A stretch of 64,000 nucleotides of DNA from Cymbomonas tetramitiformis. Lineage: Eukaryota > Chlorophyta > Pyramimonadophyceae > Pyramimonadales > Pyramimonadaceae. The notes beneath the pieces were generated by a model that saw nothing but the letters and a program-made list of their open reading frames with translations, was not told the origin of the DNA and did no database searches. The stretch covers positions 1 to 64,000 of the forward strand of contig LGRX02033530.1 in assembly GCA_001247695.2 (NCBI GenBank), read 5' to 3'. Both the position numbers and the translations under genes were made by a program. Of this stretch, positions 5,339 through 59,931 are shown piece after piece (position 1 is the stretch's first letter; the number at the start of each line of letters is the position of its first letter).

Positions 5339-5343
5339 AGCGA

Positions 5344-18221: not shown

Positions 18222-18228
18222 ACAAATT

Positions 18229-18301
18229 CTCTCCCGCCTGGGCTCGAACCAGAGACCTCACGGTTAACAGCCGTGCGCTCTACCAACTGAGCTACAGGAG
18301 A
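18229..18301 (-). tRNA. tRNA-Asn (GTT), inverted second copy
   Basis: Identical to the tRNA at 17677-17749 but on the other strand. Part of the 5' flank (TCATCA.TATCTCCTG) is also shared, so the two arose by an inverted duplication of more than the tRNA itself. Seven bases separate it from the tRNA-Ala. Confidence 0.93.
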
Positions 18302-22225: not shown

Positions 22226-22230
22226 AGCGA

Positions 22231-22833: not shown

Positions 22834-23166
22834 GATCTCCCCTCTTAGAAGAGTTGTGACCTCACAATATAGGGTGCATACCTTTGTATATGTCTTTGAT
22901 GTCTTTGTTGTTGAGCTGGTACCAGTCTTCTTTACACCGATGAGGCGTCCCTCAAGGTGTTTTTAGGATATTGGGGGGAACTGGGTCCACTCTAAACCCT
23001 CACCTTAGGCATTTAGCCCTACAGTTCTTAGGATATAGCCCCCATGAATTGCGTATCGTATTTCAGAGTGACGTTTCAAGGTATCTTCCGAGGTTTACGT
23101 TACGGATAGATATTGCGTTGCCGTTCGTATCGTATTTCAGAGTGACGAATTAAAAACGAATATGTT

Positions 23167-23736
23167 TTAGCCACCATCGACCTCTGAGAGAAAAAAGAGA
23201 TAAGCTACGGCTTCTTCAGCCGACCCACTGGATCGTATACGTCGTAGGTGCTTCCTCATAGTGGTGGCACTGACCAATTCCATTTCAGGAAGGTCATCTG
23301 AACCTGGAGTCTGTTCAACTCTGGACAGAACTGTACGAACATTGGAACCTGATGAATGTTTCCTGGTGATCGTCATATTCTTGGACTGGAAGTCAATGTG
23401 TGGGTTCCTTCTTTCCAACCAATCCTGTCCCAGGATGACTGTGAAGGGTTTCGTGTCAATGATATAGAAATCTTCTGTATCCTTATATTTACCCAGCGTG
23501 AATGTAGCATTGGGAAGATAGGATGTACAGGGTAATTGGCTTCCTCCAGCCAATCCCACTGAGAATGATGATGAGTCTGTTGGTGATATACCAAGCTGAG
23601 AAGCGAACTGTCTGTCGATAAATGACGATGTAGCTCCTGGATCTACCAAAATGTGAGTACTCTGTCCATATACTTTCCCTTTGTACAACAACGGCTTCTT
23701 CTGTGATTTCAGCTGTGCTGTCTGTGACCGCATCAT
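23167..23736 (-). pseudogene. Protease remnant of pol, copy 2
   Basis: 189 codons identical in reading to the start of pol at 12613 (protease motif ILVDPGATSSFID), ending within the inter-domain linker where the 5.7-kb deletion joins it to noncoding 3' sequence. Confidence 0.85.
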
Positions 23737-23857
23737 TTCTGTGCGATGTGTTCTGAGGGAGTATCCATCTGCTGGAACTGTAATGTCAGACTGGAAAGGA
23801 CTTCTTCTGAGATACTCTCAACCCGGCCACTTGCTTCAGTGGCATTTTCAGGCTGAT

Positions 23858-25237: not shown

Positions 25238-25720
25238 CTAAGATAAAACACCACACCAACAAAACCTTCAAAATGGATGCGTGTGTGTGTAATATATATA
25301 TATATATTGTACATGTATTAATTTTGTACATTGTTATAATGAGGTGAAGTATATATATGGTTCCACCTTCTTCCCCCCTCAAGGAAGTGTGAACTCCACA
25401 GGCAGTTGTCAAGTGCCTATTACCTCATCAAGCAGCATGCAATTCCCTTAGGAAGCAGCTGTACAATTATTGGGTTGTTGCCCGATATATTGGTCACGAA
25501 TGTGCTGATTTCAGCATGACCAAAATGCCAAACACGGAGTGTTTTACTATTGTATAGTGGCATTTTAGGGTGTGTAGGGTTACTGTGACCCTTATCACCT
25601 ATAGTGACATTAGGGTGTTATATGGTATCAATAACACCTAATTATATCAAATTTAAGCGGTATGAACATTTTCTGAAGGAATTAAATCAAAACTGCATTT
25701 AATATGTCACTGAATACCAC

Positions 25721-28414: not shown

Positions 28415-28787
28415 AGCGATTTCCAGCTTTATTTTAATCACGATGTTTAATCAAATCACGATTAGTTGGTAATTGCAGTACAATCATGACTTGATTAGAT
28501 CAGGTCCGCAGCGTTAATCGCGACTTGATTAGTCACTAAAAAGGCCTAAGCATGCCCCTGATCATGATTAGGGGTTGTAATCATGATTAGGGGTTGTAAT
28601 CATGAACAACCTTGCCATTATTCGCATGTCATCATTTGTAGGTGCATTATGCGAATACTGATGAAGCGATCATTTCCGGACGAGGCTCTGGTCTCAGCCA
28701 AATTACCCCTCGCCCGTATTATGCTTCAATTTAAATAATGTTATTCGCGTGGAAAAATTATAGCCAACTGCCAGAAATTCATCAGTA

Positions 28788-28860
28788 TCTCCTGTAGCTC
28801 AGTTGGTAGAGCGCACGGCTGTTAACCGTGAGGTCTCTGGTTCGAGCCCAGGCGGGAGAG
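28788..28860 (+). tRNA. tRNA-Asn (GTT), copy 2
   Basis: Identical to 17677-17749, at the same offset of 11,111 bp. Confidence 0.93.
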
Positions 28861-29259
28861 CGCTCACATATAGCCCGGAAGGATACGATACTATATTCAT
28901 GATCGTTTTCCCGCATCTGCTGATGAGTGGATGTTGTTGATGATTCGGTTGTAACAAATGCAGGAAGTATACTATCGTATATCAGAGTTGCGTATTACGT
29001 AACTTGTGACATCAGATATGGAATATGCAGTTATCCATCACGACAGCGATAGTAGGTGACGGAGCATTAAGTATACATAAACCGTCCGCCTCTACAGTAC
29101 AGCTCTAAGACTATCTTTGACCCTAAACATTCCACCTCTGATGATATTGGTAATTATTGAAATGCATTCATTCTGGGTAGGAATTAAGAAGCCTCTCCAC
29201 CTTTGTTGAGATGTTATCTAAATATTGAAATTATTTTTCACGAAAATGGGAGAAATGAT

Positions 29260-29332
29260 TGGAGTTGCCGGGTTTCGATCCCGGTACCTCCCGCATGCAA
29301 AGCGGGCGCTCTACCAATTGAGCTACAACCCC
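29260..29332 (-). tRNA. tRNA-Ala (TGC), copy 2
   Basis: Identical to 18149-18221, with G3:U70 and anticodon TGC. Confidence 0.93.
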
Positions 29333-29339
29333 ACAAATT

Positions 29340-29412
29340 CTCTCCCGCCTGGGCTCGAACCAGAGACCTCACGGTTAACAGCCGTGCGCTCTACCAACTG
29401 AGCTACAGGAGA
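29340..29412 (-). tRNA. tRNA-Asn (GTT), inverted, copy 2
   Basis: Identical to 18229-18301. Confidence 0.93.
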
Positions 29413-29552
29413 TATTGATGAGATTTTTCAAACAAATCATAAACATTGTTTACATTTCCTTATAGATGATATTCGTATTTCGTAACACGCGACATGGATT
29501 TACGGCAGCGGCACATTCCTTCGATTGAAGATTCTTACATCGTCGATCGTTA

Positions 29553-30079
29553 CCCGTAATTTTAACGAGGAAATTACCTCTGTACTGTACTGTCGTTTGG
29601 TCTGTACTGTCTCGTCTTTGTACTGCGTCCGTGACAGCATGTCAATTTCCGCGTCTCTGGTTGGAGGTCCACCGTTTTTCGTCGACGGCAGTACAATGCA
29701 GACAAAAAGGACGACAGTATAGAGGCGGAGGCGTGGATGTCGCCAAAATGAAATTAAGTATGGTGCGGAACGGCCGGTACATGCTACAGTACACACGACA
29801 GTATACGGAGTACAGCCGACAGTACAGACTACAGTACCGACGACAGTATACGACAGTGTACGACATTTTCCCATATGACCGCTTGCACAGACGACAGTAC
29901 AAAACGTGGTGGAAAATACTGCATGCCCCTCTCTCGATAATATTTCGCTTAAACCTTCGGGCTGTACTGTACTGTCGCACGGCTGCCACGTCGGCACATA
30001 ATTCCCCAAAATCGACAGTACAGTGTCACAGAAAACCGACAGTACAGTACAGAGGTAATTTCCTCGCTAATATACCGGG
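29553..30079. mobile_element. 527-bp Harbinger-like MITE
   Basis: Present only in copy 2; copy 1 shows the empty site at 18450 (GATCGTTACAATA). The ends are CCCG...CGGG with about 40-bp imperfect inverted repeats containing CGAGGAAATTACCTCTGTAC, flanked by TTA on both sides (29550-29552, 30080-30082). A 3-bp TWA target is typical of PIF/Harbinger. The middle is full of CGACAGTA/GTACTGTC words in both orientations. No transposase is encoded. Confidence 0.85.
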
Positions 30080-30445
30080 TTACAATATAAACTCTTATTA
30101 CTCTACACACCGACTTCATCGTTCATGCCGATGCTGTATCATCCTGTAGTTGCACAAGCGAAGGGACGTGTGACACTCAGAGAATTAAGTGGAAGAACAC
30201 GATGAACGTTAACACGTGACGAAATCCCGTCATTAAATATGGAAAGCTACAAGCTTCATCAAAGCCCTGGCGCTGGCGCGTGTTAGCTTCTGTAGTGTGA
30301 AATTGTGTAAGAAAGTGTCACAAGTTTTCTCTCGACTGTTGGAACACCAATTTGGTGGCTCGTTTTTTGCCGGTTCACTGCGGACAGTGCGCGCACGAAA
30401 GAGAGGTTTTTATCAAGCGTCCCGCCTGAACGCAGCCGCGACGCT

Positions 30446-33400
30446 ATGCCTCGAGTATGGCCGATATTGTTGTGCGTCGTGCTGCTCTGTGCAAGTGCGC
30501 GTAGCGAATCTCAAGAGGCCGAAACCTCTGAAACGCAAGACCAAGGTGACCGCTTGCGCTTGTGAAATACTTGTCATTGTTATATTTCAGATGATGCACC
30601 CTGAACGCATGATTATCACACTTTCTCGGATAAATATTGCTATCGCACTCGTATATCGCGAAGTTGCATAGCAGGAGGCTCGTCGCACAAGAATTATCAG
30701 TGCCACATACACCTGTTCACCGCACGCATCTTTATTGCTGACTGGCGTTTTTTAAAAAGCACATGAACGCTTCGATGTAAGCCACAATCTATTCTTCTCC
30801 TAGCTCTTAGATTTTGTATGGCTGCAGTAGATCCCATGCCCGCCGCTCCTCTCCTCAGACACGCTATTCGCACGGCGTGTGCAATCAGCCTGCCTTCTTG
30901 CCTGGCGTACATGCACTGTCCACCGCTCGCAGTTTTTGTAATAGGGGTATTCGGAATCGGGCCATGGCTAAGTGGAGGGACGGAACGCGCTCCGTCGCAG
31001 ATTTGGATCCAACCAGAGTAATTGCGTCAACTACGATTTCACTGAATCGAAGAACATCCGCGGGAACTGAGGTTCCTCACCCGGTTCCCGCTTCAATATT
31101 CGAAGGGGAAGACGCAGCTGCCGCATCTTTTAGATTTTGTGCGCAGAACAACATGGAGAATCTCGAGGCAGTGTTGACTATCATTAAACACCTCCAACCA
31201 CTTCTTGACAAAATGGATACAGTTCCTGAAACTTCTGAACCAGCCCTTCGCTCAGCCGGTACGCTCGAACACTCGTAGATGATATGAGCCCGCAACTATT
31301 GATGCTATGCGAGAGTGTTCTTCCCGTATCGCCCAGTCGCCACATGTCTCCGTGATCAGCTTCTACCGGTCAGCGCTTTGTGGTCCACAGCACGTTTGCG
31401 CCGTGCGACACGACCTCCTTGCAACTTGTGCATTGCACGCGTGTACTTTCCTCAGCTCAACCTAACCTGAGGACGAGCCGAATGCGCTGGCTCTTTACTT
31501 TCCATATAGTAGCGTAGCACAGATCTTGGCTTAGGCCTGGCGCGCGCGACGTGCTTGAAGACCGTTCCGCTGTGCACAGTTCACGCTGTGACCAGAAGGT
31601 TTTGAACGAGGATTTCTTTCCAGATCTGAAAAAATAACTGGTACATCGATCGGTGCCAGTTTAGCAGATCATATTCTTGCAGCACCTCGTCCCCGTCACT
31701 TTAATCCCGGCTCGCTCGTCCGAAGTCTCCAGCTGGAGGGTTGCTTGGCCTCACTAGTCTTCCGCTGCCCGCACAAGTGTCATCGCTGGCTTTGCCTTGT
31801 CCTGTTCCGCGGATCTCTGGGGCTCCCCACTCCGCTGCCCGCACAAGTGGCGAGCGGAGTGGTCACCTGCTCCACTCCGCTCGCCCACGCCGGTCGCCAG
31901 CCTCCACCGGACTGCTTGTGTGCCAAGGAACCTCTTCGCGCGCCGTCACAGTGGTGGTGGGGTGGCGGAGCAGGCGCCTATGCGAAGAGGGCGAAGGAGG
32001 CTATCGCGGAGGGGCGGCCACTGGATGCCGGGGCAGACCTGATCCGCGCCCTGAAGCGCGAGGGCCTCGACCCGGAGGCGGCCGAGCGTATGAAAGCGCA
32101 GCTGACCAATGTGTTCTGGGAGACGAAGCGCTTCTGGGAGGCAGAGGCTCGCGCCAGGTGCTGCCGCCCTGTGCTGCGGCAGGAACGTGGCCGGACCCTG
32201 CATGTAGCGCCCCCTGCGCGCACTAGCTGCAGGGCTAATTGGTTTGGAGGCAAGCACGCCGGCGACTTCTGCTCTTCCGGCTGAGCCTCCGCCGGCAAAA
32301 AGGCGCCGCCGGGGCTTTCAACGTCGCGGGGTTCACGAGGGCGCACCTTTCTCAACGCGAGGCAGAGGTTGGGTCGGGTGGTGGGTTGGGTGCAGGGAGG
32401 CGGCGGAGAAGGAGGAAGCGCGCGCAAAGGCGGAGGAGGAGGCCATGAAGGAGGCAGCGGCACGGCGCTTGGCGGACGAGGAGGACTGGGCGCGCCTCGA
32501 GGGCTTAGCGGGCGATGAAGAGGCGGAGGTACTCGCGGAGCTCAATCTTCAGCTGATTAACAACAAGGGCAGCGAGGGGGAGACCTCCGTGCCGCAGGTC
32601 GCCAAGATGCTCGCAGGGGTGCACGAGGTGCCTCTCGCCGAATCTCCCTCTCAACCTTCACCGCAACCCTTCTTTGTGTCTTGCTCTCTGTGCCTTCCAG
32701 CCCATCCACCACGGTCCCCCTCACCCACCCCACTAGCCCCCTGCGTTCTGAGTGATCCGCGAAGTTGAGGGGTTGGTCCGTCAGGATGAGTTGCATGCCG
32801 GGTTCGACTTCTGCGTCGCGCACAGCATGTACAACTCCGACGAGGTGCACAATCTCGGGCGGATGCTTGGCCAGCGTCTTCCGCCAGAGTTCCGCCAGGA
32901 GCTCAGGTGCACTTCCCCTCCTTATCTTCCACGGCGTCGTCTGATCGGACAACAACAACTCGATTTGTAGCCTTCTTCTGACCCCATCTCTTTCATGTTG
33001 CTGGCGGCAGCAGCCGTATCAAGCTTCCTCAACGCTCGCCCTGTTGGTGACCCCTCCTGTGCTTCACGGAGGGGCGGGCACGAAGGCAGCGTGGGGTTTG
33101 CTCATTCCATGGTGGGTGGGTGGAGAGGAGGCTGGTTGGGGGCTCGGAACAGGGGTAAGTGGGAGTCAGGGAACTGCGAGGAACGGGCCACCAAGGCATT
33201 TGATCTCGAGAGGGCGGCGGCATTCCACAGTGCCGGCGTGGCATACGCGCGTATCTTGTCGGAGGACGGGTCGGAGGGCTGCACACCGGAGCAGCTGAAG
33301 TACTCCAAGGACCGTCTAGTGCACTGCATGACGGTGAGTGAAACCCTGGCGCGCGTGGTGGTGACGAGTCACGCATGGGGATGAATGATGCTCTGGCTTA

Positions 33401-45509: not shown

Positions 45510-46716
45510 CCACCCCCCTTTGATTATTTTTATCCTCTTCCTTTTTTCCTTGGTTTTCTTTCCTTTTTAATCACCGGGGGGTGGGCTTCAGTTACGGGTG
45601 GCTCCTAGCCCCCGCGACTACGGACTCCCGGTACGACACTATTTATTGTTCATTTTTTTACTATTTATTAATCATTTTTCATTATTTTATTAATTATTGT
45701 CGCCTGCTTTTTCTTTGGCTCTCGGATTGATTTTACAGCAGATTCCTTTCTCCCCCTTCCCCTTCCCCGCTCCTTTACTCCTATGTCATCTGCGGGATCG
45801 CACACACTCGCTCGATCGCTTCCTTTGTCGATCACACCTCCTCTCCCCGCCCACATCCTGTTCCCTTTTTAATTTTCCTTGCCTCCTTTCATCTCCTCCT
45901 CGGTGCATTCTTTGTTCTGCATCCTCTCTTGTCCTGCCCTTTGATCACTCTGCTCACCGGTGCTTCCCGCTCCACCTCGACGCCGCGCCCTCGCACTCCA
46001 ACGCTCCGACGCGCCTCGCTCGTGCTCCTGCCTGTTTGCTTCGTGCCTGCTCCCAACTTGAACGGTACGCTCTTCACTCCCTTTTGTCCTCTCACACACA
46101 CTGACACTGCATGCACCCTAGGCATACGAACCGGCATATAGAGCACTGAGAGTCACAGCCCACAGTGCCACGGGGCCCGGGCAGCATGCACTCCTTCTTC
46201 CTCTCAATTCTCCCTGCCTGATTCTCTTTGCCCTCAATTCTCCCTGCCTGATTCTCTTTGCCCTACTCTCCCTGCTTGGTCCGTCAGGTCTCCTGCTTGA
46301 TCCGTCATCGTCGGTCGGTTTAGAGCTTGGCGTTGTGTCCGGGGAGCCTAGTGCGAGCTGGGAAACCTTGGTGATCACGTGCACCGTGCCTTGGTTTCCC
46401 CTGTAATTCTTTGTGGCTTTCACTCGTCTAGGTCCGAGCACCCCTGCTGGAGCCTCCGATCCCAGCACACTATTCACGGGGACGCACGGTGCAGTGTCGA
46501 GAGTCAGAATCGACTTCCACAACCGGCTTTGGGCTTAGGGTCGCTGTCGTCCCCTTGTTCCTTGTCTCCCTGCCTTCCCTCCTGCCCTTAACTCCTCACC
46601 CTGCTTGATCCTGATCTCTCTCTCTTCCCTTTCTCCCTGTTTTGATATTTGATCCTCTGGTTTTGATCATTGATCTTTGTGCTAGGTTAGGTGGGCGAGA
46701 GTCTCCCTCCTCCCCT
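45510..46716 (+). repeat. Left terminal direct repeat
   Basis: From CCACCCCCCTTTGATTATTT to CTCCCTCCTCCCCT; about 98% identical by eye to 55392-56606. It contains a 29-bp doublet CTCAATTCTCCCTGCCTGAT (about 46204-46262). The preceding base context differs between copies. Confidence 0.9.
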
Positions 46717-49178
46717 CTCTCTTCGGCTTCTGACAGTCAGCGACGCCTCGGCACTCGTTGGCTGGGCCCTCTGCACGTGAGCCTGCATTTAGATATTCGA
46801 GGGTTTTTCGTTAACCCTCGTTTTTGCATTCTGCGCGAGGCGTACGGTTTCCTTTTCTGATATTCGCATGGCACCCTGGTTGCCACCAACCTCTCACACA
46901 CGCATCTCACACCTGCTTCTCTACCTTCATACATCGCGTTCACTTGCCTCTTGCTTCTTTGACCTGACCTGTTTTTCTTGTCTTCGCGCACCTTGCTTGA
47001 TCCTTCCTGCTTACTCCCTGTCGCTTATCCTGCCTTTTGTTTGGCCTTCCTACTCTCTGCTCTTTCCTCCTTGCGCCTCCTCACCTCTCTTGCGCCTTCA
47101 CCTTCCCTCACGCCCTCTCATCTCGCCTTCCCTCGCGCCCTCTCATTTCACCCTCTCCCTGACTTCTACCTCTCTTTCCTTTTCCCCACCTGACACCTTC
47201 CCTTCCCCCCTTGGCTCATGCGTTCTCTTCTTGTTTCATCACGCCTTGACTCTTCCCTTCCTCGCCTGTCGCGACCCTCTCGCTCCGTCGGTCTCCTCCT
47301 TTTCTCTCGCAGGTCGCTGACGGTTTATTTACCTTCGCCCCTTTCGCCACTGACTTCTCTCCCACGCGTCGCCTCCCATGGGATATCTTGTTTTATCCTC
47401 GCTCCCACGGCGTGTCGCACGCTCTCCCACGTCGCGCTCACTTTGCCTTCGCCCCTCGCATCTCGACTGCGTCTCCACCAGCTGCCACGGTCCCTTCGCC
47501 TCTTCCTCTCGCATCGCGTCGTTCTCGTGACCGGTTCCTTCGCCTTTTTGCTCGTTGTGCGCATCTCGCTTCTTCTCACACAGGTTCCCGACGCTGACTT
47601 TCAGCTCTCAGCCTTTCTCCACGTCATCGCGACCCTCTCGCTCCATCGGGTTTCTTCCTTTCTCTTTCGCAGTTCGTTGACGGTTTTTTTCGCTTTCGCC
47701 CCTTCACCGTTGGCTTCTCTTCCGTGGAACATCTCGTCTCTCCTCGCTCCCACAGCATGTCGCACGCTCTCCCATGTCGCACTCACTTTGCCTTCGCCCC
47801 TCGCATCTCGACTGCGTCTTCACCAGCTGCAGCGGTCCCATCGCCTCTTCCTTTCGCATCGCGTCGTTCTCGTGACTGGTTCCTTCGCCTTTTGCTTGTT
47901 GTGCGCATCTCGCTCCTTCTCACACAGGTTCCTGACGCCGACTTTCAGCTCTCTGCCTTTCTCCACGTCATCGCGACCCTCTTGCTCCATCGGGCTTCTT
48001 CTTTTTCTCTCGCAGGTCGTTGACGGTTCGTTCGCTTTCGCCCCTTCACCATTGGCTTCTCTTCCGTGGAACATCTCGTCTCTCCTCGCTCCCACGGCAT
48101 GTCGCACGCTCTCCCATGTCGCGCTCACTTTGCCTTCGCCCCTCGCATCTCGACTGCGTCTCCACCAGCTGCAGCGGTCCCATCGCCTCTTCCTTTCGCA
48201 TCGCGTCGTTCTCGTGACTGGTTCCTTCGCCTTTTGCTTGTTGTGCGCATCTCGCTCCTTCTCACACAGGTTCCTGACCCTGACTCTTGGCTCTCAGCCA
48301 CATCTCTGACGGCTCCTTTGCCTTCATCTCACTTCCAGACTTCCGACGGCTCTTCTTGCACCCCTCCTTCTACCTCTTTTATCTCGGCTTCCTCTCTTCC
48401 CTTTTCACATCTTCATTGGCCCGCAGTTACTTGCTCTGCCTCTGACTCACATGGCACACCTCACCTCGTTCCTTTCCGAGCTTCTGGCTCTGACTTTGGG
48501 CCCACAGTTGGTGCTCCGACGGCTTATCTCGCTCCCTCCCTTCTACATCTCACCTTCCAGACTTGCTTCCCTTTCTTCCCCTTTCTCACCTTTCTTACAT
48601 CTCACCTTCGGAAGGACTCTCTCCTCGGTCTCCTTGTTTCTCACCTCCTCCACAGTACTTGTCACTCTTTTGGGAGTACCCCTGACCGGGCTCTCTCTCC
48701 CATGACACAGTTTCCCCCCTTCCCGCACCCTCTTTTCCTCCGTCACGACCCACACCTGCAGATGATATCTTCGTCTGGCCTTCCTTCTTCCCTTCGGACC
48801 TCTGATTTTCCTTCAGCCCCTTCCCCGATCTGCACACCTCGGACTGCTCCCCGGAGCTCCGTGTGCTGACCTTTCCTTTCCTCGGTCCTCCCCTTGACAC
48901 TCTTTTCCTCGGTCCTCCCCTTGACACCCTTCTCCTTCTGTTCTCCTCTCCTTCCCTCCTGCCTCCTCCTCCCCTCCCCTGTCCCTCACCTCCCTCCTTC
49001 TCGGCTCACCCCTCCCCTCCCCTCCCTACTTGTGCTCTCTCCTGGCTTTCCTTGCTTATAGTTACGATTCTGGCTCTGGTCTCTGGCTCTGGGTTCTGGT
49101 TCTGGTCTTGGGCAGCTTCTGGACACCGCTCTCTTCCCCCCCCGCCTTCCCCTTCCCCCCCTTCCGCCTCCGCCCTTC
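46717..49178 (+). other. Pyrimidine-rich leader without conserved ORF
   Basis: The plus strand is very rich in C and T. The only long open frame (47218-48309) lies over the tandem repeat below and has no domain. The first plausible start for the RT protein is ATG 49179. Confidence 0.6.
47307..48290 (+). repeat. Three ~345-bp tandem repeats in the leader
   Basis: Units begin near 47307, 47667 and 48010 (TCGCAG(G/T)TCG(C/T)TGACGGTT) and run to TCTCACACAGGTTCC(C/T)GAC. Units 2 and 3 are nearly identical, unit 1 more diverged. Confidence 0.85.
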
Positions 49179-51558
49179 ATGGACTTCCGTACCCTCGCCG
49201 ATCTCTCCCTCCCCCCACCTGACCCCCTCCTTTGCCCCTCCCCCAAACCCCCCCCTCCGCCCCTTGGCATCCCTTTGCCTTACCTCTCCCCTGCCATCGA
49301 TTCCCTCCGCCTCCCGAGGCTCCTCCACTCCGCAGTTACCTCCATTGGCTCCCCTCTCTCCCCCCTCCCCATCCAATGGCAGTACAACCCCCCTGTAGGT
49401 CTCTCGGTCATCTCTAGCCGTAAACGGGCTAAATCTTTCATCCCTCTCCCTGACCTCTCCCTCCCTCTCCCGTGCTCCTGCTCCTCCACCTTCCCTCCCC
49501 GCTTCCTCCGAGAGTTTGACGGCTCCCCACACCTCTCTACTGCTGACCCATCCTTCATCTCCTCCCTTCAGGGCACATATCTTCCTAGAATGACTCTCGG
49601 CCCGGAATCAAGAAAAACATGTGTTTTTGCTAATTTTCAAATGTTTTCCATACTTAAGGATGAAAAATCGACCGGCCCGCTTTCGGCCCGGAGCTCTTTT
49701 TGGGCGTTGCTCTCGGCCCCGGGCCGGCCAATCCCCATAAGATATGTGCCCTGCCTCCCTTCCTCGACTCTCCCAGGAGAAGAAGGCTCGTCTCCTGACC
49801 CTCTTCTCTGCCGAACTCTCCTTCAAACCCTCCGTTGCCTTCTCTCTCTCTGACCTCCTCTCCGCAGTCCGCACTGGCTTCCATTCCTGGGCATCACGGT
49901 CCCGCCTTGCCCCTGCCGACGTTGACCCTCTCCTCCTCGAGTCCCTTGCGATCATCGAGCGAGCCTTTCTGGTCACCTTCCCCTCTGACACTGCTGGCAC
50001 TACTCACACTCTTTGCGTCACCCGTGAAGACCGCCTTCTCCTAAAGAAGGCCTCTTCCCTTTTTGTCTCTTTCGCTGTGGACAAGTTCGCCCACAACGTG
50101 GCCTTCTCCTGCCCGGACCTCTATGACTTCCAGCTGATCACCGAGCTCAACAACCTGGACTACTACGGCGCACTCCCAGATGCACTTGGTCCCGAGGACG
50201 TCTCTGCCATCGCCGCCCCTCGATTCCTCAAGCAGCTCCAGCTTCTCCCTGTCATCTCTCTCCATCCCACCGCCACCCCGGAGAACACCGCCCGCATCGG
50301 CTCCCTCCATCGGATGGTGAAGATTGACAAGAACAAGGGCCGCTTCATCATTGCCCAGCCAGTGTGCCACCTACCGGGAGCCTGGAGGTGCTGTTGCCGC
50401 CCTCGTCCTCTCCCACCTCTGGGAGTCCCACCGCACCCATCTCCTCCGTCAGGGACATATGTATGATCTCCCTCTCTGGCCCTTCCTGAAGGATGGTGCA
50501 GACTTTGCACTCTTCCTTCGGGGAGTCAAGGACGACATCTTCTCCTTATTCACTGCGGATGCCACCAGATTCTTCACCAACCTGCCCGCCCAGGACTACC
50601 TTGACGAGCTCACTGGTGTACCGGATACTGGCTTCATCTCTGACATCTGCTGGTTTACCATGGAACCTGTACGGGCTCGCTCCTTTGACGGACTCCACTC
50701 CCATCTCTACGATGACATCAAGCACCACCGCATCCGCTGGGGCACACCCTCCCCGGACCTCCCCGCCCGCCTCGTTGAGCTCTCTCCACTTGCCCTCTGC
50801 ACCTTCTTCGAGGAATACTATTCCTTCAGCTGCTTCCGTTACCGTACTTGGTTCGGTAGCAGAAGAGTGGTATCATCATCGGGGACCAGACGGGCACACA
50901 TGGCTGCCAGATCACCCTCCTTCGACGTTGGCTCCGTGTGATCTCCCACCTCTACCACAGCCCCTGGAGATCCTACCTCTTTGCCCCTCCCCGTCCCCTC
51001 TCCCAGGTCAAAGGTTATGTTGATGACTGGTTCTCCGCCAACGCCCTTGACTTCCACCCGGCCTTCACAGGATCTCTTTTCCACTCCGTCCTCATCGTTG
51101 AACCCACCGTCCTCGACACCCGTGTGGTCCCTGGACTTGGACCTGTTGGCTCCCTGGTAAACTTCCTTGACATCACGGTCTCCCTCCGTCCTTCTGGCAC
51201 CGGCGCTGTCTTCTCCCCCTTCTCCAAGCCCCCTCCCGCCAAGCTCCCTCACATCCACAAGTTCACCGACGCTCACTCTTGCTTCCCCCCTGGCCGTCGC
51301 CGTGCCGTCCTCACTGGTGCCTTCATTTCTGCCTACCGACGCTCTCGCCGTGCTGGGGACTTCATCAAAGCCGCCTCCTCCGTGGGCTTCTACCTCATCC
51401 GCTTCAAGCACTGGTCCCGTCGAGAAGTCCCCCGTCTCTGGCAAAGGTTCCTCTCCAGGGTCTCCTCCGCCCCTGTCTCCTGGCTCCCCACCTCCCCCAC
51501 CCTCCTCCGGAGCTACACCCGGAGATTCAGCGCTCGGCTGCCCACCTCTCGGCCCTGA
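49179..51558 (+). pseudogene. Reverse transcriptase of the unusual retroelement (frameshifted)
   Basis: The reading starts MDFRTLADLS, is cut by a MITE (49569-49753), resumes SLPRLSQEKKARLLTLF, and shows VDKFAHNVAFSC and HRMVKIDKNKGRFIIA. A frameshift near 50355 leads to ATRFFTNLPAQDYLDEL; another near 50880 leads to IIIGDQTGTHGC and the catalytic KGYVDDWFSANALDF (51016-51027 YVDD). After it come VNFLDITVSL and THE-type HSCFPPGRRRAVLTGAFISA, like the FLD and HP...K..V...R segments of Penelope-like RTs. Ends at 51558. Two frameshifts plus the insertion make this copy non-functional. Confidence 0.7.
49569..49753. mobile_element. 185-bp hAT-type MITE inside the RT ORF
   Basis: Perfect 15-bp inverted ends CAGGGCACATATCTT / AAGATATGTGCCCTG with an 8-bp target duplication CCTCCCTT (49561-49568 and 49754-49761). 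Both the CAGGG end and the 8-bp duplication are typical of hAT elements. Removing it joins ...PSFISSL to PRLSQEKK in frame. Confidence 0.9.
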
Positions 51559-51664
51559 CCCTGTGACCCTCCCTCTCTCCCCTCTCCTCCCCCTCTCTCC
51601 TCTTCCCTCTCCTCTTGCCTTCCTGCTCTCATCGGTACTGACGGAGAGTTAGGGGAACTCAGAT

Positions 51665-52015
51665 ATGGACCCCTCACAGGACCTCACCTTCTCCACCTCC
51701 ACCTGGGGCCCTCACTAGCAGCCTTATGAGCCCTCCCTACCGCCACAGCAGCAGTTCGCCCAGCAGCCGCAGCAGCAGTTTGCCCAGCAGCCGCAGCAGC
51801 AGTTTGTCCAGCAGCCGCAGCAGCAGTTCGCCCAGCAGTTTACCCAGCCACACTTCCTTGACTCCCATGGCCGGGTTGTCATGCACCCGCCCCAGGACCA
51901 CATGCCACATCTCTTTCCATCCCCCTCCCCCCTCCCACCACTACCCCCACCACCCACCCCTTCCACCCCTCCCCCTCTCTGACATGTCCCCCCACGGTGC
52001 CCCTGATCCGCACCT
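51665..52015 (+). pseudogene. Gln-rich repeat segment upstream of the GRF ORF
   Basis: From ATG 51665 the frame reads MDPSQDLTFSTSTWGPH, meets a TAG, then QQQFAQQP repeated four times (24-bp units, about 51746-51845) and Pro-rich sequence before stops. It may be the original N-terminus of the GRF protein, broken by a CAG-to-TAG change and a frameshift. Confidence 0.5.
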
Positions 52016-53434
52016 ATGCCGCACCCCCAGCCCCTTCTCTCACCCACCACCGGCACCGCCTGCACGCGCCCTCCTCCTACGCCCCACGCAGCCTCCTTCG
52101 GCATCTCCTCTTTCCCTGTGCTGTTAGAGAGACTCGCGTCCGGTAGCGCTACCACCACGGCTCTCGACGGCCGCACCCCCTCCTCCTCCCTTCCTTCCTC
52201 GGCTCCTCCCCCCTCCGCCCCGCCAGCTTCCCCCGCTGTTCCATCCGCTCCCCCCTCCTCACATCCCCCACCACCCCCTCGATTCACCCCTGCCGACCTG
52301 GCACAGCCCCCACCCTCCTCTGGCCCCTTCCCCCTCCGTCCCCCTTCTGACCCCACTCCCTCCCAGGCGCACTCCGTGCATTCTGCAGCGGTGGCTCAGA
52401 AGCTGGCCACTGGTGAGACCCCCGTCCCCACCTGGCTTGGGGTCAACCCGATGGTCCCCCCTGCCCAGTACCCTCTCTTCCTCTGCCTCCCTCCCCTCAC
52501 AGGGCAGCTCCTCGCCGCTGCCATCGCGGCGGGAAAGATCCCAGCCGGTGGCTTCACTCCTGCCTGGATTCATTCCCTTTCCGGCTCCCTCTCCCCTGAC
52601 TCCCTCGTCTCCATCGCCTCCGCCCTCCTGGAGGGCCGCCTCCCCTGGAAGGTAGCTTCCGACCCCTCCACCCTCACCTCCATCTTCTCCCCACCCCCCC
52701 CTGAGGGCACAGGAGACCCCACCCTCCTTGGCCTAAAGGACGCCCTCCTCTCTGCCCCTGCCATGGACCTCCAGTCCGCGCTTGACTCCCCAGCCTTCCA
52801 GGCCCTCCCTCCCCTCCCGGCAGTTCTCCACTGGTTCCGTACCCGTTCTGGCACCCCTCTCAGCACCACCCATCCCCCTCCAGTCGACAACACCCCCATC
52901 ACCGGGCATGTCATCTCCTCTCTTCACCAGACTCCCTCCCCCTCCACGCCCTTCTCTCCCGCTCCTGTCCAGACCCACACTCCTGCCCCCACCTTTGCCT
53001 CTGCCCCGACCGCCACCCAGCCGCCTCCCCCTGCCCCCTCCCAGGTACACCGTAAGCACGGCATCGACCTCAACTTGCAATGCAAGTGTGGGGTCAACAT
53101 GGTCTCCCGCACCTGCGCCCGTGGCCAGGCCCAGAACCTGGGTCGCTGCTTCTTTTCCTGCCCGAACAAGGACATGCGCAAGGATAAGGGCGACCCAAAC
53201 AACGGCTGCAAGTCCTTCGTCTGGGCGGACGAGATCATCCACTCGCTGTGCTCCACCGCCCGCCAGATGCAGCAGTTCCAGATCAACTCCATGAACAAGC
53301 TCGACCCCAACCTGTCCAAGACATACCCCGACGGCATTCCCTTCCTTTACCCGGAGGACCCCCACTTCCCGACCAACTCCTTTCCCAACCGCGCCTCCTC
53401 CGCCTCCCTCTCCGACATTCTGTCCTCCCGCTGA
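52016..53434 (+). CDS. Proline-rich protein with C-terminal GRF zinc finger
   Basis: 472 codons. The first 340 residues are mostly Pro/Ser/Ala-rich and probably disordered, with a more ordered stretch at about 130-275 (LGVNPMVPPAQYPLFLCLPP). Residues about 344-407 form a zf-GRF domain: LQCKCG, SRTC, the diagnostic NLGRCFFSCPN, then GCKSFVWADE. GRF fingers bind single-stranded nucleic acid in NEIL3, TTF2 and topoisomerase III alpha; here it could chaperone element RNA or cDNA, which is inference. The start codon is uncertain because of the damaged segment upstream. Confidence 0.75.
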   Translation: MPHPQPLLSPTTGTACTRPPPTPHAASFGISSFPVLLERLASGSATTTALDGRTPSSSLPSSAPPPSAPPASPAVPSAPPSSHPPPPPRFTPADLAQPPPSSGPFPLRPPSDPTPSQAHSVHSAAVAQKLATGETPVPTWLGVNPMVPPAQYPLFLCLPPLTGQLLAAAIAAGKIPAGGFTPAWIHSLSGSLSPDSLVSIASALLEGRLPWKVASDPSTLTSIFSPPPPEGTGDPTLLGLKDALLSAPAMDLQSALDSPAFQALPPLPAVLHWFRTRSGTPLSTTHPPPVDNTPITGHVISSLHQTPSPSTPFSPAPVQTHTPAPTFASAPTATQPPPPAPSQVHRKHGIDLNLQCKCGVNMVSRTCARGQAQNLGRCFFSCPNKDMRKDKGDPNNGCKSFVWADEIIHSLCSTARQMQQFQINSMNKLDPNLSKTYPDGIPFLYPEDPHFPTNSFPNRASSASLSDILSSR

Positions 53435-53467
53435 CTCCCTCCCTCTACACTGTGGGGGGCACTCCAG

Positions 53468-54124
53468 TTGGGCGACTCTCCGTCCCTCATCTGGCTGGAC
53501 AGCTCTCTCCGTCCCCGCCTCCTTAATGGCCGCTTCTTCCTCAGATCCTCCCCTCGGCCCCTGGCGCCCTCACAGTGTGTCTTCCCCTCCGCAGTCACTA
53601 TCCCTTCCCCTTTCCCTTCCATTTTCTCCCTCCCACCCCCTTCCCTTGTTCATGATAACCCCCTGTCCCGCTTCTGGTCCACTGCCTCCCTTCTTTCCCT
53701 CCTCGCCTCCACCATCACTCGCTTCGCCGACCCTTCCAGGGACATCCTCATTGACGCGGGTTGCGGCAGCAACAGCCTCCTCCCCCTCCTGCCTCTCTTC
53801 ACCTCCTTTGCCTTCGACATTGTAGGCTCCGCCGCCCGCTGGCAGTTGGACTTCTTCGACGTGCCTCCCCTCCCAGGCAGTTTCATCCTGGTTGGGAACC
53901 CCCCCTGGGGCGCTGCAGTCCTCCGCCAGTGGCTCTCCCACTCACTCCTCCTTGGGCCACGACTTGTGATCTACATCCTCCCTCTCTCTCTCCCCTCCTC
54001 CTTCCCAGACTTCCTCATCCTTCACCATGAGGTGGTTACGGGTGATGTCTTCTACCAGTCTGAGTCGGGCACATGCTTTGCCCGTCCTGCCAGGTTGGGC
54101 GTCCTCAGACCCCGCCATGCCTGA
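53468..54124 (+). CDS. N6-adenine methyltransferase-like protein
   Basis: 218 codons, starting 34 bp after the GRF ORF. A Rossmann-type motif I DILIDAGCGSNSLL (residues about 92-105) is followed at about 143-149 by GNPPWGA, the (N/D)PP(Y/W) catalytic motif IV of amino-methyltransferases, then LVIYILPLSL. It is short, about the size of a minimal MTase fold, with no target-recognition domain. DIRS elements are known to carry Dam-like methyltransferases; finding one with this RT type and a GRF finger is unusual. Activity is not proven. Confidence 0.65.
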   Translation: MGDSPSLIWLDSSLRPRLLNGRFFLRSSPRPLAPSQCVFPSAVTIPSPFPSIFSLPPPSLVHDNPLSRFWSTASLLSLLASTITRFADPSRDILIDAGCGSNSLLPLLPLFTSFAFDIVGSAARWQLDFFDVPPLPGSFILVGNPPWGAAVLRQWLSHSLLLGPRLVIYILPLSLPSSFPDFLILHHEVVTGDVFYQSESGTCFARPARLGVLRPRHA

Positions 54125-54959
54125 CTCACCACTCCCCTCCCCCACACTTACCGCCGTCCCCTCGCCGCCCCCCTCTCCCCCACCACTCTCCCCTCCACTC
54201 ACCACCGCCCCCCCTCCCACCTCCCCGACATGGAGTGATGAGCTCATGGACCTCCTGGACTCGACGGACCCGGATGTCCCACCCCGGGAACTGCAGGACA
54301 TCATCTCCGCCCCCCCCCGCGGACTTCCCATTATTGACTCTGCGGGAGGCCGGCTGGCGACATCACCTCCCCGGGGCCCCCCCCATCGTGGTGCCTGGGT
54401 GGTTACCGCCGACTTTGTGTGCCCGAGATGCCACCGCACCGGCGGCTTCAGTTCGGTCTGGTGGGCTCGCCAGAGATCTAGATTCCGGGCTCTGTGTGGG
54501 CTTCCTTCCCCTTCCACTGGGAAGGCTTGTGGACGCCGGGTGTACGACCAGGACCACATGAGAAGCTACTCCATCCAGGCCAACGACCTCTTCCACCGAC
54601 GCCGCTCCCGTAATGCACGGCTTCGGAACCCTGCTCCCCCCCCCTCCTCCTCCGGCGTGCCTGCCCCAGCTCCCCCTCCCGCACCCCTTCCCTCCCCCTC
54701 CGCTGCCTCCACCCTCATCTCCCTTGATCATACTCCACCTGCTCGCGCCCCTCGCACCCATCCCTTCTTCCTTCGCCCCTCCGCCCCCGCCTCCCCCCCC
54801 TCCCCACCTCCACCTCCCTTCCCCCCGACGTCCTCATCATCTTCACTTGGCCTGCCAGTTATCTGCTCCATCTGCGGACGTACAGCGGCTCACTCACCGA
54901 CTGGTTGCCGGCAGTGTATTACGGAAGACCTCACTTGCCTGTCATCAGATTCTGAGTAG
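54027..54959 (+). CDS. Pro-rich protein with two Cys clusters
   Basis: 310 codons, overlapping the methyltransferase ORF by 98 bp in another frame; the true start may be a later ATG (for example at about 54118, MPDSPLPSP). The middle has VCPRCHRTGGFSSVWWARQR followed 15 residues on by GKACGRRV, a zinc-ribbon-like pattern; the C-terminus has ICSICGRTAAHSPTGCRQC, a second CX2C...CX2C pair. No named family recognised. Confidence 0.55.
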   Translation: MRWLRVMSSTSLSRAHALPVLPGWASSDPAMPDSPLPSPTLTAVPSPPPSPPPLSPPLTTAPPPTSPTWSDELMDLLDSTDPDVPPRELQDIISAPPRGLPIIDSAGGRLATSPPRGPPHRGAWVVTADFVCPRCHRTGGFSSVWWARQRSRFRALCGLPSPSTGKACGRRVYDQDHMRSYSIQANDLFHRRRSRNARLRNPAPPPSSSGVPAPAPPPAPLPSPSAASTLISLDHTPPARAPRTHPFFLRPSAPASPPSPPPPPFPPTSSSSSLGLPVICSICGRTAAHSPTGCRQCITEDLTCLSSDSE

Positions 54960-55391
54960 ATTAGCGGACACTCCTTGCCTTTATTTTCCTGCCCTTACAC
55001 TATATTAATTGTTATATCACCTGACTGCCTCACCTCTCCTTGCTCGGATGTACCCTGCCCTTCCACCTTTTGCCTTGCCTGACTGCCTCACCTGATTGTG
55101 TTGTGACGGACCCTGCCCCCTTCCCCTCCCACCTCTTCTCCCCCCTCTCTTCTACCTCCCTTTCCTTTTTTTCCTCATCCCCTTCCTCTCCCCTTCCCCA
55201 TGCCCCTCCTACCCCCTCCCTCTCTTTGTCTCCCCTCCCCTCTCATCTCCCCCCTCCCCTTGTCTCCCCTCCCCTCTCTTCTCTTTCCTCGGGGGGTGCT
55301 GTAGGATCAACTTCATGGGGTCAATTCCCTGAAGTTAATCCCTCAGGGGGTTGGCCCCTTCCAGTTTTTCCTGGTTGAGTTCAACTCTCGC
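54960..55391 (+). other. Pyrimidine-rich spacer before the right terminal repeat
   Basis: No ORF of note. A small inverted motif set lies at 55303-55360 (CAACTTCATGGGGTCAATTC, then CCTGAAGTTAATCCCTCAGG), possibly a structured 3' end. Confidence 0.5.
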
Positions 55392-56606
55392 CCACCCCCC
55401 TTTGATTATTTTTCTCCTCTTCCTTTTTTCCTTGGTGTCTTTCCTTTTTAATCACCGGGGGGTGGGCTTCAGTTACGGGTGGCTCCTAGCCCCCGCGACT
55501 ACGGACTCCCGGTACGACACTATTTATTGTTCATTTTTTTACTATTTATTAATCATTTTTCATTATTTTATTAATTATTGTCGCCTGCTTTTTCTTTGGC
55601 TCTCGGTGTCTCGGATTGATTTTACAGCAGATTCCTTTCTCCCCCTTCCCCTTCCCCGCTCCTTTACTCCTATGTCATCTGCGGGATCGCACACACTCGC
55701 TCGATCGCTTCCTTTGTCGATCACACCTCCTCTCCCCGCCCACATCCTGTTCCCTTTTAAATTTCCCTTGCCTCCTTTCACCTCCTCCTCGGTGCATTCT
55801 TTGTTCTGCATCCTCTCTTGTCCTGCCCTTTGATCACTCTGCTCACCGGTGCTTCCGCTCCACCTCGACGCCGCGCCCTCGCACTCCAACGCTCCGACGC
55901 GCCTCGCTCGTGCTCCTGCCTGTTTGCTTCGTGCCTGCTCCCAACTTGAACGGTACGCTCTTCACTCCCTTTTGCCCTCTCACACACACTGACACTGCAT
56001 GCACCCTAGGCATACGAACCGGCATATAGAGCACTGAGAGTCACAGCCCACAGTGCCACGGGGCCCGGGCAGCATGCACTCCTTCTTCCTCTCAATTCTC
56101 CCTGCCTGATTCTCTTTGCCCTCAATTCTCCCTGCCTGATTCTCTTTGCCCTACTCTCCCTGCTTGGTCCGTCAGGTCTCCTGCTTGATCCGTCATCGTC
56201 GGTCGGTTTAGAGCTTGGCGTTATGTCCGGGGAGCCTAGTGCGAGCTGGGAAACCTTGGTGATCACGTGCACCGTGCCTTGGTTTCCCCTGTAATTCTTT
56301 GTGGCTTTCACTCGTCTAGGTCCGAGCACCCCTGCTGGAGCCTCCGATCCCAGCACACTATTCACGGGGACGCACGGTGCAGTGTCGAGCGTCAGAATCG
56401 ACTTCCCCAACCGGCTTTGGGCTTAGGGTCGCTGTCGTCCCCTTGTTCCTTGTCTCCCTGCCTTCCCTCCTGCCCTTAACTCCTCACCCTGCTTGATCCT
56501 GATCTCTCTCTTCCCTTTCTCCCTGTTTTGATATTTGATCCTCTGGTTTTGATCATTGATCTTTGTGCTATCTAGGTTAGGTGGGCGAGAGTCTCCCTCC
56601 TCCCCT
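55392..56606 (+). repeat. Right terminal direct repeat
   Basis: Homologous to 45510-46716 over its whole length; differences include an extra GTGTCTC near 55605, loss of CC near 55857 and CTATCTAGG for CTAGG near 56570. Confidence 0.9.
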
Positions 56607-57020
56607 CCCTCTCATATCTCTCAGAGGCAACATCCTCTTGTCTCTCCATGTATGTCTACCAGCTCCTACGCTGGCATATCTCGCTCCGTGGACATCATGG
56701 GACTGAGTCAAGGGGTGCCTCTGTGATGTATCAGGATAACGCCTGCACGACGCTAATCTCAATTCCCTCGCCTTCGCAATGGCTCTACTCCCCGAGCCAG
56801 TATCGCGGGTACCAACTCTCCACCCCGGGGAGTTATGCCTCCGCCTTCGTCGCTGTCACCATTGGCGCCGGAGTTCCTCCCGCGGGAGAACACCATGGTG
56901 GAGGACGCGGCGGATGACGCAGTGCTACCCGACATCACGGATGGCGGCTGGAACCATCGCACCCGCCACCATGCTGGCGAGGTCCCTCCCCTTCTTCGAG
57001 CTCACACTTGGGGAGGATGA

Positions 57021-59931
57021 TTGGTACGCGTGCCTGATCATGGAGCAGTCCCGACCCCATACCGGCATGGCGAACGTGGTGAGTCCGACTACTCTGCCAC
57101 GACCACCACCATCGACAGGCCTCTCCGTCGCGGACGCCCTACGGGCCCCCCTTCGCCATCGAGGTCTGACGTGGCCGACTGGCGGCATGCGCGCCCACTG
57201 CAGTCTGGTGAAGGTGGACGTGCTGGAGAGATCGTCTCCAACATCGCGGACTCCCTTTCGCGAGGACCGGCCGACCCTGACATCGCGGAACCAAGTTTAA
57301 CGCGGTCTGGTGGTAGCTTCCGTTATACCAACTCTCCCCCTCGCGGCCGTCGCCCAATGGAGGAGGCGCCTCGGAGAGGTGCGCTGTTTGGAGGATCCCC
57401 TGAGCCCGCCACCCCATCTGTACTTGCGGAAGAATTCACCAGGAGCGAAGTCCGAGTCTCATTTGCGGATCCAGTGGAAACGCCTATAGGGCACCCACCA
57501 AGGGATAGGGCGCAGAGCCAGGATCGCCAATCCGGCGCGGAATCGGCGCCTGCCAGGATCGGAGCCCCTCCTGCCGCATCAGGCCGGTTTTACACAGTCC
57601 GCAGTGCATCCACTGGAGATCCGGAGCTGGCTCCTCCGCGCCTATCGCGAGCCGCTCGACGGCGTCAGCGCATATCACAAACGAGTCAGTCCACATCTAT
57701 CCCTGTGACATTCCGCTCACAGGATGACAGCTCGGACCACACCTCCGCACCGAGGGAAGCTCCTCCGCTCCTCACTCTAGGCGACTCTGGGACTCAGCCG
57801 CCAGCAGGAACCATCACGAGTTCCCAGTAAACCTCAGACATCCTCTCCGCACTGCAGGAGGAAGTGCGCAAACTCTCTCTACTGAGTCTCGCCTCCCTGC
57901 AGTCGCAATCCATTGCGTCTGGAGCCCCCACCACGGACGGGTCAGTTTCCAATGTCGGGTCTCAACCCGCACTGGCCCTTCCTGGCTCCCTGGAACCTGC
58001 CGCCTCAGTCCCCGGTCCGCCGTCGTCTTCTTCCTCCGGTTCCAAGACATCTCCTCCACCATCGCCTCCAGCCTCGGATCTGGCGGGTAGCGAGTCGCGA
58101 CTAGATGTCATTGTGTGGACTCTGGAAGGAGATACGCTATGGCTCACGCACTCCGGGATCATTACAGCCAGTCCCGGTAGCACCAGTCCGCCCAAGTATC
58201 GCCTTCCCACCAGTTCGTCTCCTGGAAAAGAGGACAATGTCCTAGAGCGAGTTTGGGCGACCCTGAGTCACATCGGATTGGACATTCGGGACCTCGCAGC
58301 GCAAGGACCCGTACGCACCCCGCTGCGGCTGGAAGGCCTGGATCAAGGAGAAGCGTTCGCGCTCTGCGTCAAAAAGGACCAAGCGAAGAGCGCGCGCCGG
58401 ACCGCGGAAAGTCGCGTAGGGCCCAGACACCGTCGCTACCCTGCTTGTGTGTGGGCTAACATTCCTCCCACCACGCTGGAATCCGAAATGGAGGAATACG
58501 AAGAGTTCGGCCGCATGGTATGGGCCGCCCTCTCAGGCTCGGAGGAATATATCTTCCGTTCTCTGTCCAAGGAGCAAGCTCCAGCGTCGTCGGCTCGCAA
58601 GGACTCCGAACCTGCATCAAAGCCTTCGCAAGAGGTCAGGTTCGCAGGACCCTTAGAGTTGGATAAAGAGCACCCCTCAGGAATGATGACTATCCCGAAC
58701 ATGAGTCAGCGACCTGGATGGGCTGACCTAATGGGAGAAGTCGATGCCAGAACAGTCCACACCGAGTCAAACACGGTGAGCGACTGCATCAAACTGGTGA
58801 AGGAACTCCCTTGGTATCCTGCTCAGGAAACTCTACTCTCAGCGCAAGAAGACATCTCCGCTCTGCCAGCTTTTACCGAGGCACTCACTTATTTAGTGCA
58901 GCGGGGTATAGTCAGCTTTGCCCTCCATCGCCCCAGTTCCTACAAACTAGGGGTTACCATCCTGACTATTCCCGAACTTCTGAAAGAAATGGCAATACAG
59001 CGCCTACAGAAGCGCTCCCTGACCTTTTTGCGTCAGGGAGGTCTCATGAAGGACGAGGAGGCCTGGGCCTCCCGCTATCACGCGCTTCCCCCCTTTCTAG
59101 CAGATGTGGCCCGCAGCGTCCTTGATGAAACTGCCTTAATGGGCCTCGCGGGGATGGTCAGCCGGATGACTCAGCGTCGCGAGGAGTAAGCGCGTCTCTT
59201 CTGCACCCGCCTCACCGGATGGTGGGATGTCACGGAGCTCCTAGCAGGATCAGTGAAAGGATGTCCATCCATTCCTGTCAACCAGATGCTGTATGTACCA
59301 GTACTGGTCAGGTTTGCATCTTAAACAGGCAGTAATGGACAGACTGACAGAGGATGGACTGGACATCATCCAGCCTCACCTCTGGGAAGCTCGCCACCCT
59401 GGATCCACAGCTCTTCAGCACGTGATCACAGTCGCCACTAAACTGGAGAAAAGCGAGCTCTCCCGCCTGCCAGCAGCGCCTTCCCCTTCCCCCGTCCAAA
59501 CTTCGGGCAACAGGCGCCGTTCGTGGAATACTTCTCAACGAAGGACGCCAGCCCGTCTGAACGCAGTTCAGGAATCAGAGGATGAAGGAGAGGAGCCCCA
59601 CTCTGCAGACCTCCGCGCTCAGGACGCTGTCACTGGAGCCTCGAGTCTAACTCGGCCCCCCCGAAAGTGCTTCGTCTGTGGCGCGGAAAACCACTTGTGG
59701 AGAGACTGTCCGCATGAGGAGCGCAAGCGTCAGTGGGTGGCGGATGCCCCCAACCGACTGGCCCAACGGAGAGTTAAGAACGAGGCTCAGGTAGCAGCAT
59801 TGGAAGCAGACATGGAGGACTTAGAGGATGAGGCTGAAGCCCTGGAGGCTTTTCAAGCCGGGGAGGCGTCCGCAGCGTCTCCCGCGGAGACGTCCTCTGC
59901 GGAATCCGAAGAGGAGGACCCCCGGCAGTGA
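57021..59931 (+). pseudogene. Gag polyprotein of an LTR retrotransposon, two stops and one frameshift
   Basis: The frame 57021-59189 is broken only by TAA at 57828-57830 and TAA at 59187-59189; beyond it reads FCTRLTGWWDVTELLAGS, a retrotransposon-gag-like stretch. A frameshift near 59290 leads into 59293-59931 with KCFVCGAENHLWRDCPHEE, a CX2CX4HX4C zinc knuckle, and an acidic tail. No pol follows. Upstream coding character reaches back to about 56780 in other frames. Confidence 0.7.

Follow-up and report, generated by a model that had tools for sequence, protein, structure and literature searches.

A retroelement family of Cymbomonas tetramitiformis linking a putative reverse transcriptase, a GRF zinc-finger protein, a methyltransferase-like protein and a Cys-cluster protein

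In the first 64,000 nucleotides of contig LGRX02033530.1 of the green alga Cymbomonas tetramitiformis (hereafter the window), two direct repeats of about 1.2 kb at positions 45510 to 56606 enclose open reading frames (ORFs) for a reverse transcriptase (RT), a GRF zinc-finger protein, a protein with an NPPW motif and a protein with two Cys clusters. The locus raises the question of whether these genes form one mobile unit, what kind of retroelement that unit would be, and what the NPPW protein would do in it. The first-pass annotation, made from the window alone, had proposed an undescribed retroelement lineage that modifies or shields its own DNA. We find that the window copy is one damaged member of a retroelement family, better-preserved copies of which carry the four linked genes. 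The layout described at first was borne out by coordinates and motifs: the repeats (45510–46722 and 55392–56612) share 97.9% identity with 0.9% substitutions, and between them the plus strand carries, in this order, the RT (KGYVDDWF in 50860–51558), the GRF protein (motif NLGRCFFSCPN, in 52007–53434), the NPPW ORF (motif in 53435–54124) and the Cys protein (both clusters in 53970–54959).

The genome assembly (851,713,466 bases in 25,745 contigs) was searched with the C-terminal 232 amino acids of the RT and with the Cys protein. The RT gave 47 matches on 40 contigs, including 23 (window included) at 98–100% over at least 227 of the 232 amino acids, 16 of these within frames that stay open for 765 codons or more. 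For the Cys protein, 38 matches were obtained on 34 contigs, and on 27 contigs an RT match was followed downstream, at under 6 kb and on the same strand, by a Cys match (median gap 2,578 bp). Ten further copies of the window's own subfamily, termed A, were fetched for structural comparison. Nine of them hold the RT in one frame of 765–766 codons, and eight reach the downstream genes; the GRF, methyltransferase-like and Cys genes are present in all eight, and the remaining two contigs stop shortly past the RT. Among these eight, the GRF ORF is in a single frame in four, and both the 229-codon methyltransferase-like frame at its usual position and a 329-codon stop-to-stop Cys frame are found in seven. 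Linkage first seen in one copy thus recurs in many, and near-identical copies share all four ORFs.

Two diverged subfamilies retain the same gene order. Subfamily B comprises three contigs (C5208, C9404, and C19269) and shows, depending on the stretch, 81–86% identity to A in the RT, 54–80% in the GRF protein, 67–80% in the methyltransferase-like protein and 42–52% in the Cys protein. Subfamily C, on contig C23355, has RT sequence at two places (49–53%), one of them with GRF (31%), methyltransferase-like (43–51%) and Cys (30%) sequences in the conserved order. A chance association of neighbouring genes was rejected, because 27 contigs link RT and Cys protein and because B and C keep the order. 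We calculated pairwise ratios of nonsynonymous to synonymous substitution rates (dN/dS), excluding codons with stops or gaps. Between A and B, the ratios were 0.11–0.15 for the RT, 0.27–0.40 for the GRF protein, 0.26–0.29 for the methyltransferase-like protein and 0.39–0.48 for the Cys protein, and between A and C they were 0.27–0.51. For the methyltransferase core, the comparison of A with C19269 yielded 0.24 in its own frame versus 1.19 and 2.11 in the other two. Judged by these ratios, all four genes are under purifying selection between the subfamilies. What stands of the proposed lineage is therefore a coherent family that links the four genes in many copies and keeps their order in two diverged subfamilies; its rank is taken up below. 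Three contigs (C13293, C12486, and C7055) combine RT parts about 85% alike to the window, and hence B-like, with an A-type Cys gene (99–100%), and in C7055 the switch between A and B lies inside the RT; they are apparent recombinants between the subfamilies.

The RT gene (49179–51558, plus strand, ATG at 49179) encodes the motifs DATRFFTNLP, SGIIIGD, GYVDDWF and VNFLD in this order, which, as far as we can judge, resemble those of Penelope-like elements. A GIY-YIG endonuclease was not matched by Pfam in the six main ORFs or in the RT of an intact copy, and a genome-wide search for this domain gave 26 matches, all in frames of at most 266 codons, which yielded no Penelope reference. A viral origin was also considered; two scans of viral contigs with two peptide patterns each, together with RT and methyltransferase alignments, confirmed no relative. 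The second gene (51665–53434, plus strand) comprises 582–597 codons where it is in a single frame, and the window frame contains one stop and one disrupted stretch. The zinc finger named in the first-pass annotation was confirmed above the Pfam cut-off in subfamily B: against PF06839 (cut-off 25.9 bits), the B copy scored 27.9 bits, and A (window), C6814 and C stayed below with 21.6, 22.4 and 13.4 bits, respectively.

The third ORF (53435–54124, plus strand, 229 codons) was compared among four members from A, B and C. The motifs LIDAGC, FDIVG, LDFFD, LV.NPPW and IYILP are kept, with motif I of C reading IDAGCA, and an S-adenosylmethionine (SAM) motif I, an acidic motif II and NPP(W/F/Y) appear in order in all four. 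This is the order of the SAM-binding and catalytic motifs of class I amino-methyltransferases, and methyltransferases that act on N6 of adenine or N4 of cytosine usually have NPPW as their catalytic motif. Profile searches gave weak matches to Methyltransf_23 in Pfam (E 0.24, one of four members), to a DNA methyltransferase in PHROG (E 0.0029, three of four members) and, for all four members, to a PHROG of unknown function. No Dam-family Pfam match was obtained, and none of 2513 candidates from the protein database reached E 0.001. Motifs and weak profile matches thus favour the methyltransferase fold assumed at first and make it quite likely, although the predicted structure was of too low a quality to decide. 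Specificity for adenine is a more tentative suggestion, which we would not yet favour. The protein might instead methylate RNA, for example to protect an end of the template RNA, with the element otherwise as proposed. Pointing this way are HEN1, a small-RNA methyltransferase found in the Protein Data Bank (PDB) at E 1.3 together with an unrelated lipoprotein of equal E, and the sole NCBIfam match, the rRNA methyltransferase EmtA (E 0.12, one of four members), both very weak; the NPPW motif itself and the best PHROG match speak for a DNA enzyme, and we consider an RNA methyltransferase unlikely.

How this protein would be made is a question of the junction with the GRF gene. The GRF frame ends with UGA at 53432–53434, and the methyltransferase frame continues it immediately 3' of this stop, in A throughout and in C for the first part, without any methionine in A. 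UGA followed by C was found at the junction in nine A copies (window included), three B copies, C784 and C. The search pattern contained the stop, yet it recovered all twelve copies in hand that cover the site; the junctions of C784 and C were read separately, and C6814 has no junction. Comparison of A with B over the 16 codons that follow UGA gave a dN/dS of 0.15 versus 2.0 and 2.4 in the other frames, and 8 of the 13 differences fall on third positions, which weakly suggests, given only 13 differences, that this stretch evolves as protein. Since the methyltransferase frame directly follows UGA-C and lacks methionine in A, the protein is probably produced by readthrough of the stop. Initiation at a non-AUG codon, or joining by splicing, would also account for a frame without AUG in A, and subfamily B offers it a further argument: a 2-nt difference shifts most of the methyltransferase frame to +1 after UGA, between the stop and the conserved core, beyond what readthrough alone can serve. 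Further frame breaks occur in all three B copies, and the frame changes later in C, too. On the other hand, codons 1–16 look coding in the UGA frame, the best start candidate, a CTG located some 21 codons further on, is replaced by CTT in three of the nine A copies and partly deleted in a fourth, and UGA-C is present in every copy read. We therefore regard such a start or splice as rather unlikely, and keep readthrough as the working proposal.

The Cys protein (54117–54959, plus strand, 280 amino acids) begins with an AUG that overlaps the methyltransferase stop, as ATGCCTGA in nine A copies and, deduced from the frames, as ATGTCTGA in two of three B copies. This overlap resembles termination–reinitiation.

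We then asked what the flanking repeats are. The left repeat of the window (45510–46722, plus strand) is six bases short, lacking the first nucleotides CTCTCG, and the right repeat (55385–56612, plus strand) begins with CTCTCGCCCACCCCCC and ends in a CT tract. In the ten fetched copies, the left repeat starts at CTCTCGCCCACC in five and within a few bases of it in two (C9274 and C22205), is deeply 5'-truncated in two (C23911 and C16342), and is preceded by an upstream copy in C23618; right ends stop at CTCCCTCCTCCCC followed by a variable stretch. A search with the repeat gave at least 45 matches, with the best 40 of 250 candidates scored. Repeats also form head-to-tail arrays, with four units in C19269 and two in C22020, and the four repeat–repeat junctions that were read are all alike (CTCCTCCCCTCTCGCCCACC). 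In C19269, RT sequence from another copy lies directly against the first repeat of the array, and in both C5208 and C19269 CT-tract junctions are followed by a 5'-truncated A piece and then by a B element.

These arrangements bear on the most conventional explanation, an LTR-type retrotransposon whose integrase was lost or borrowed and whose 1.2-kb repeats are true long terminal repeats (LTRs). It would fit that all ten fetched copies have at least a partial left repeat with an identical junction to the internal part, and that in four of seven comparable copies each repeat has its nearest relative at the other end of the same copy (window 0.9%, C23618 0.3%, C14662 0%, and C23911 0.8%); two more (C21511 and C9274), members of a very similar cluster, agree within 0.6%. 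However, the ends are not TG..CA, two of ten copies have deeply cut left repeats whose breakpoints differ, and the repeats also occur in arrays joined at the CT tract. No target duplication was found in six copies, whose own flank pairs share words of 4–6 nt compared to 3–8 nt for mismatched pairs. Protease, RNase H and integrase were not found by Pfam in the six ORFs scanned, whereas the same library does detect the Ty3/gypsy element of the window. The absence of an integrase reported in the first-pass annotation thus holds for these six ORFs, the scan having left out some small ORFs and 46723–49060. An LTR element is, in our view, improbable: the 1.2-kb repeats are not plain LTRs and act as units arranged head-to-tail, each with a CT tract at its end.

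The ends of the unit are complementary. At the 5' end of the right repeat, a hairpin (55390–55467, plus strand) is formed by pairing of 55390–55400 with 55457–55467, and folding of 55386–55640 gave a z value of −4.76. Of the 19 available A repeats that include this part, 14 preserve the two arms exactly, as do all three B repeats; for B, in which the loop sequence differs, this refers to the arms and not to a fold. Adjoining the 3' CT tract, GGTGGGCGAGAG (56580–56591, plus strand; second occurrence at 46690–46701) is the exact reverse complement of the 5' end CTCTCGCCCACC, which can thus pair either with its local arm or with this motif. In B, the complementary 3' motif was seen in the sole copy that reaches its 3' end. 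Just 5' of the right repeat, small hairpins with sub-threshold Rfam matches lie in 55117–55400, a stretch about 77% alike in two B copies and possibly a recognition structure.

Such short complementary ends, and the presence of an RT together with a methyltransferase-like protein, could also suggest a DIRS-like element using a tyrosine recombinase and the usual Dam-like methyltransferase, as the published excerpts on DIRS elements place a methyltransferase in pol (PMC3266345, PMC5890265). Here, however, neither a tyrosine recombinase nor RNase H was found by Pfam in the six ORFs scanned, a scan that leaves small ORFs aside, and the methyltransferase-like frame is separate from that of the RT and follows the GRF gene. 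It also lacks a Dam-family match, and the repeats are arranged differently from those of DIRS1-like retrotransposons (PMC3266345): there are no inverted repeats of at least 40 nt in 40000–62000, only the 12-nt complementary ends. We consider a DIRS-like origin very improbable.

The repeat organisation is more like that of Penelope-like elements than that of LTR or DIRS elements. For Penelope-like elements, pseudo-LTRs, tandems and internal initiation have been published (PMC11167929, PMC3846280, PMC6431247). The excerpts of these publications on endonuclease (EN)-deficient members and rotifer Terminons describe direct pseudo-LTRs that derive from tandems of partial units joined head-to-tail, copies truncated at the 5' end, and insertions that may or may not duplicate the target; they also describe accessory ORFs in members lacking EN, and 5' palindromes in some pseudo-LTRs. 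The present family differs from Penelope-like elements by its CT-tract 3' end and by the lack of a detected GIY-YIG domain, which is missing from EN-deficient members as well; a further difference is that no hammerhead ribozyme, a feature of the repeat in many members, was found in 55000–56800 (Rfam, E up to 5). Across the whole window, Rfam at its gathering score returned tRNAs only and no catalogued ribozyme.

We therefore slightly favour an autonomous retroelement family that has no recognised endonuclease, operates in the manner of Penelope-like elements and produces three or four proteins. Transcription would start at CTCTCGCC in the upstream repeat and give an RNA comprising left repeat, internal region and right repeat and ending in a CU tract. 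The RT could take its primers from GA-rich 3' ends where the DNA is CT-rich, also at the CT tracts of the element's own copies, so that new copies would often lie head-to-tail. Pairing of the complementary RNA ends (CUCUCGCCCACC and GGUGGGCGAGAG) would join 5' and 3' ends, allow template jumping and thereby renew the repeat. The GRF protein may hold single-stranded nucleic acid, and a minor UGA-readthrough product would place the methyltransferase on the same molecule as the GRF finger, where it might methylate the new cDNA (or the template RNA) for protection or marking. The Cys protein, made by termination–reinitiation, is probably a second nucleic-acid-binding protein. Priming, template jumping and methylation are inferred steps.

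Several results weigh against this reading. The RT assignment relies on recognised motifs: six members gave zero Pfam or PADLOC matches, the RT profile found nothing in the PDB at E up to 10 and the single protein nothing at E up to 1, hhalign of the profile to the Ty3/gypsy pol of the window failed, and the AlphaFold model from six sequences was too poor to use (predicted local distance difference test, pLDDT, 36.5). The corresponding model of the methyltransferase-like protein from three sequences reached a pLDDT of 42.5, and its fold search, which returned mostly DHFR and some methyltransferases, is uninformative and carries no weight. The linkage has gaps, as 13 RT contigs had no called downstream Cys match; of these, C19269 and C23355 show the Cys gene by direct comparison, and C21015 and C22205 end too early. 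Likewise, seven Cys contigs had no upstream RT match, some of which are accounted for by contig ends. C6814 (RT 81%) contains GRF and Cys genes and no methyltransferase match, C784 retains RT and GRF and no more than the beginning of the methyltransferase gene, with dN/dS of 0.43–0.59, like a decayed copy, and C9404 of subfamily B has lost the methyltransferase stop at the Cys start. Regarding the ends, left and right repeats of C24499 are of different type, CT-rich flanks are visible in about half of the fetched copies, a count made without background comparison, and the missing target duplication and hammerhead ribozyme, as well as the frame shifts in B and C, count on the same side.

Titles and abstract starts in the literature revealed no element joining GRF or zf-GRF with a retrotransposon or RT, or a Penelope-like element with a methyltransferase, and within this scope no earlier description of the four-gene combination was found. 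Published retroelement methyltransferases comprise, in the excerpts seen, Dam-like enzymes in DIRS elements and captured DNMTs (PMC3266345, PMC5890265). The latter include SymbioLINE-Dnmt, SymbioDIRS-Dnmt3 and the Klebsormidium Dnmt3 retrotransposons, which resemble the present family in carrying a captured methyltransferase and for which self-methylation was proposed; these are, however, C5-cytosine enzymes in other retroelement classes, as opposed to an NPPW-type protein with a GRF finger in a Penelope-like layout (PMC5890265). The accessory genes of Terminons, as given in the published excerpts, include neither GRF nor a methyltransferase (PMC6431247, PMC11167929, PMC3846280). It is tempting to see here a deep new eukaryotic lineage beside Penelope-like, LINE, LTR and DIRS elements, with a single-strand-binding GRF protein, a GRF–methyltransferase readthrough fusion that modifies the element's own cDNA or RNA, and head-to-tail spread via complementary RNA ends and CT-tract priming, but in this full form the proposal is doubtful. 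Nucleic-acid-modifying enzymes are known from few retroelements, and here a methyltransferase-like protein, apparently a readthrough extension of the GRF protein, is under purifying selection and has remained associated with an RT across deep divergence. Four defined proteins and numerous near-identical copies make it possible to test whether a retroelement marks or shields its own cDNA. The repeat arrays with complementary ends, moreover, provide a clear case for the origin of pseudo-LTRs.

The remaining features concern the window copy and its surroundings. The internal region is CT-rich (C+T 0.69 versus 0.52 for the first 45 kb of the window). Its 5' part (46723–49060, plus strand), likewise CT-rich, contains three tandem repeats of about 345 bp (about 47269–48299) and is probably an untranslated 5' region. 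The RT of the window is interrupted by two frame breaks and by a 185-bp insertion (49569–49753; no strand assigned) with 15-bp perfect terminal inverted repeats and an 8-bp target duplication (CCTCCCTT), which is missing from the ten other copies fetched. Judging by its inverted ends and target duplication, we take it to be a hAT-type miniature inverted-repeat transposable element (MITE). Directly 3' of the element, ORFs in 57831–59931 include a zinc-knuckle match of 20.6 bits (Pfam cut-off 20.8) and may be the gag of a further retroelement that lies beside this one or beneath it. Further upstream, 3634–32158 contains three pairs of near-identical blocks, i.e., 12049–18442 and 23172–29553 (99.5%), 18438–20517 and 30079–32158 (99.95%), and 3634–6316 and 20516–23168 (98%), which reflect either a genuine duplication or an assembly artefact. 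This stretch holds the Ty3/gypsy element with gag, protease, RT and integrase (Pfam), as well as tRNA-Asn/Ala/Asn trios at 17677–18301 and 28788–29412. Finally, a 0.8-kb stretch at 33976–34776 matches itself in inverted orientation at 94% and thus forms a long palindrome.

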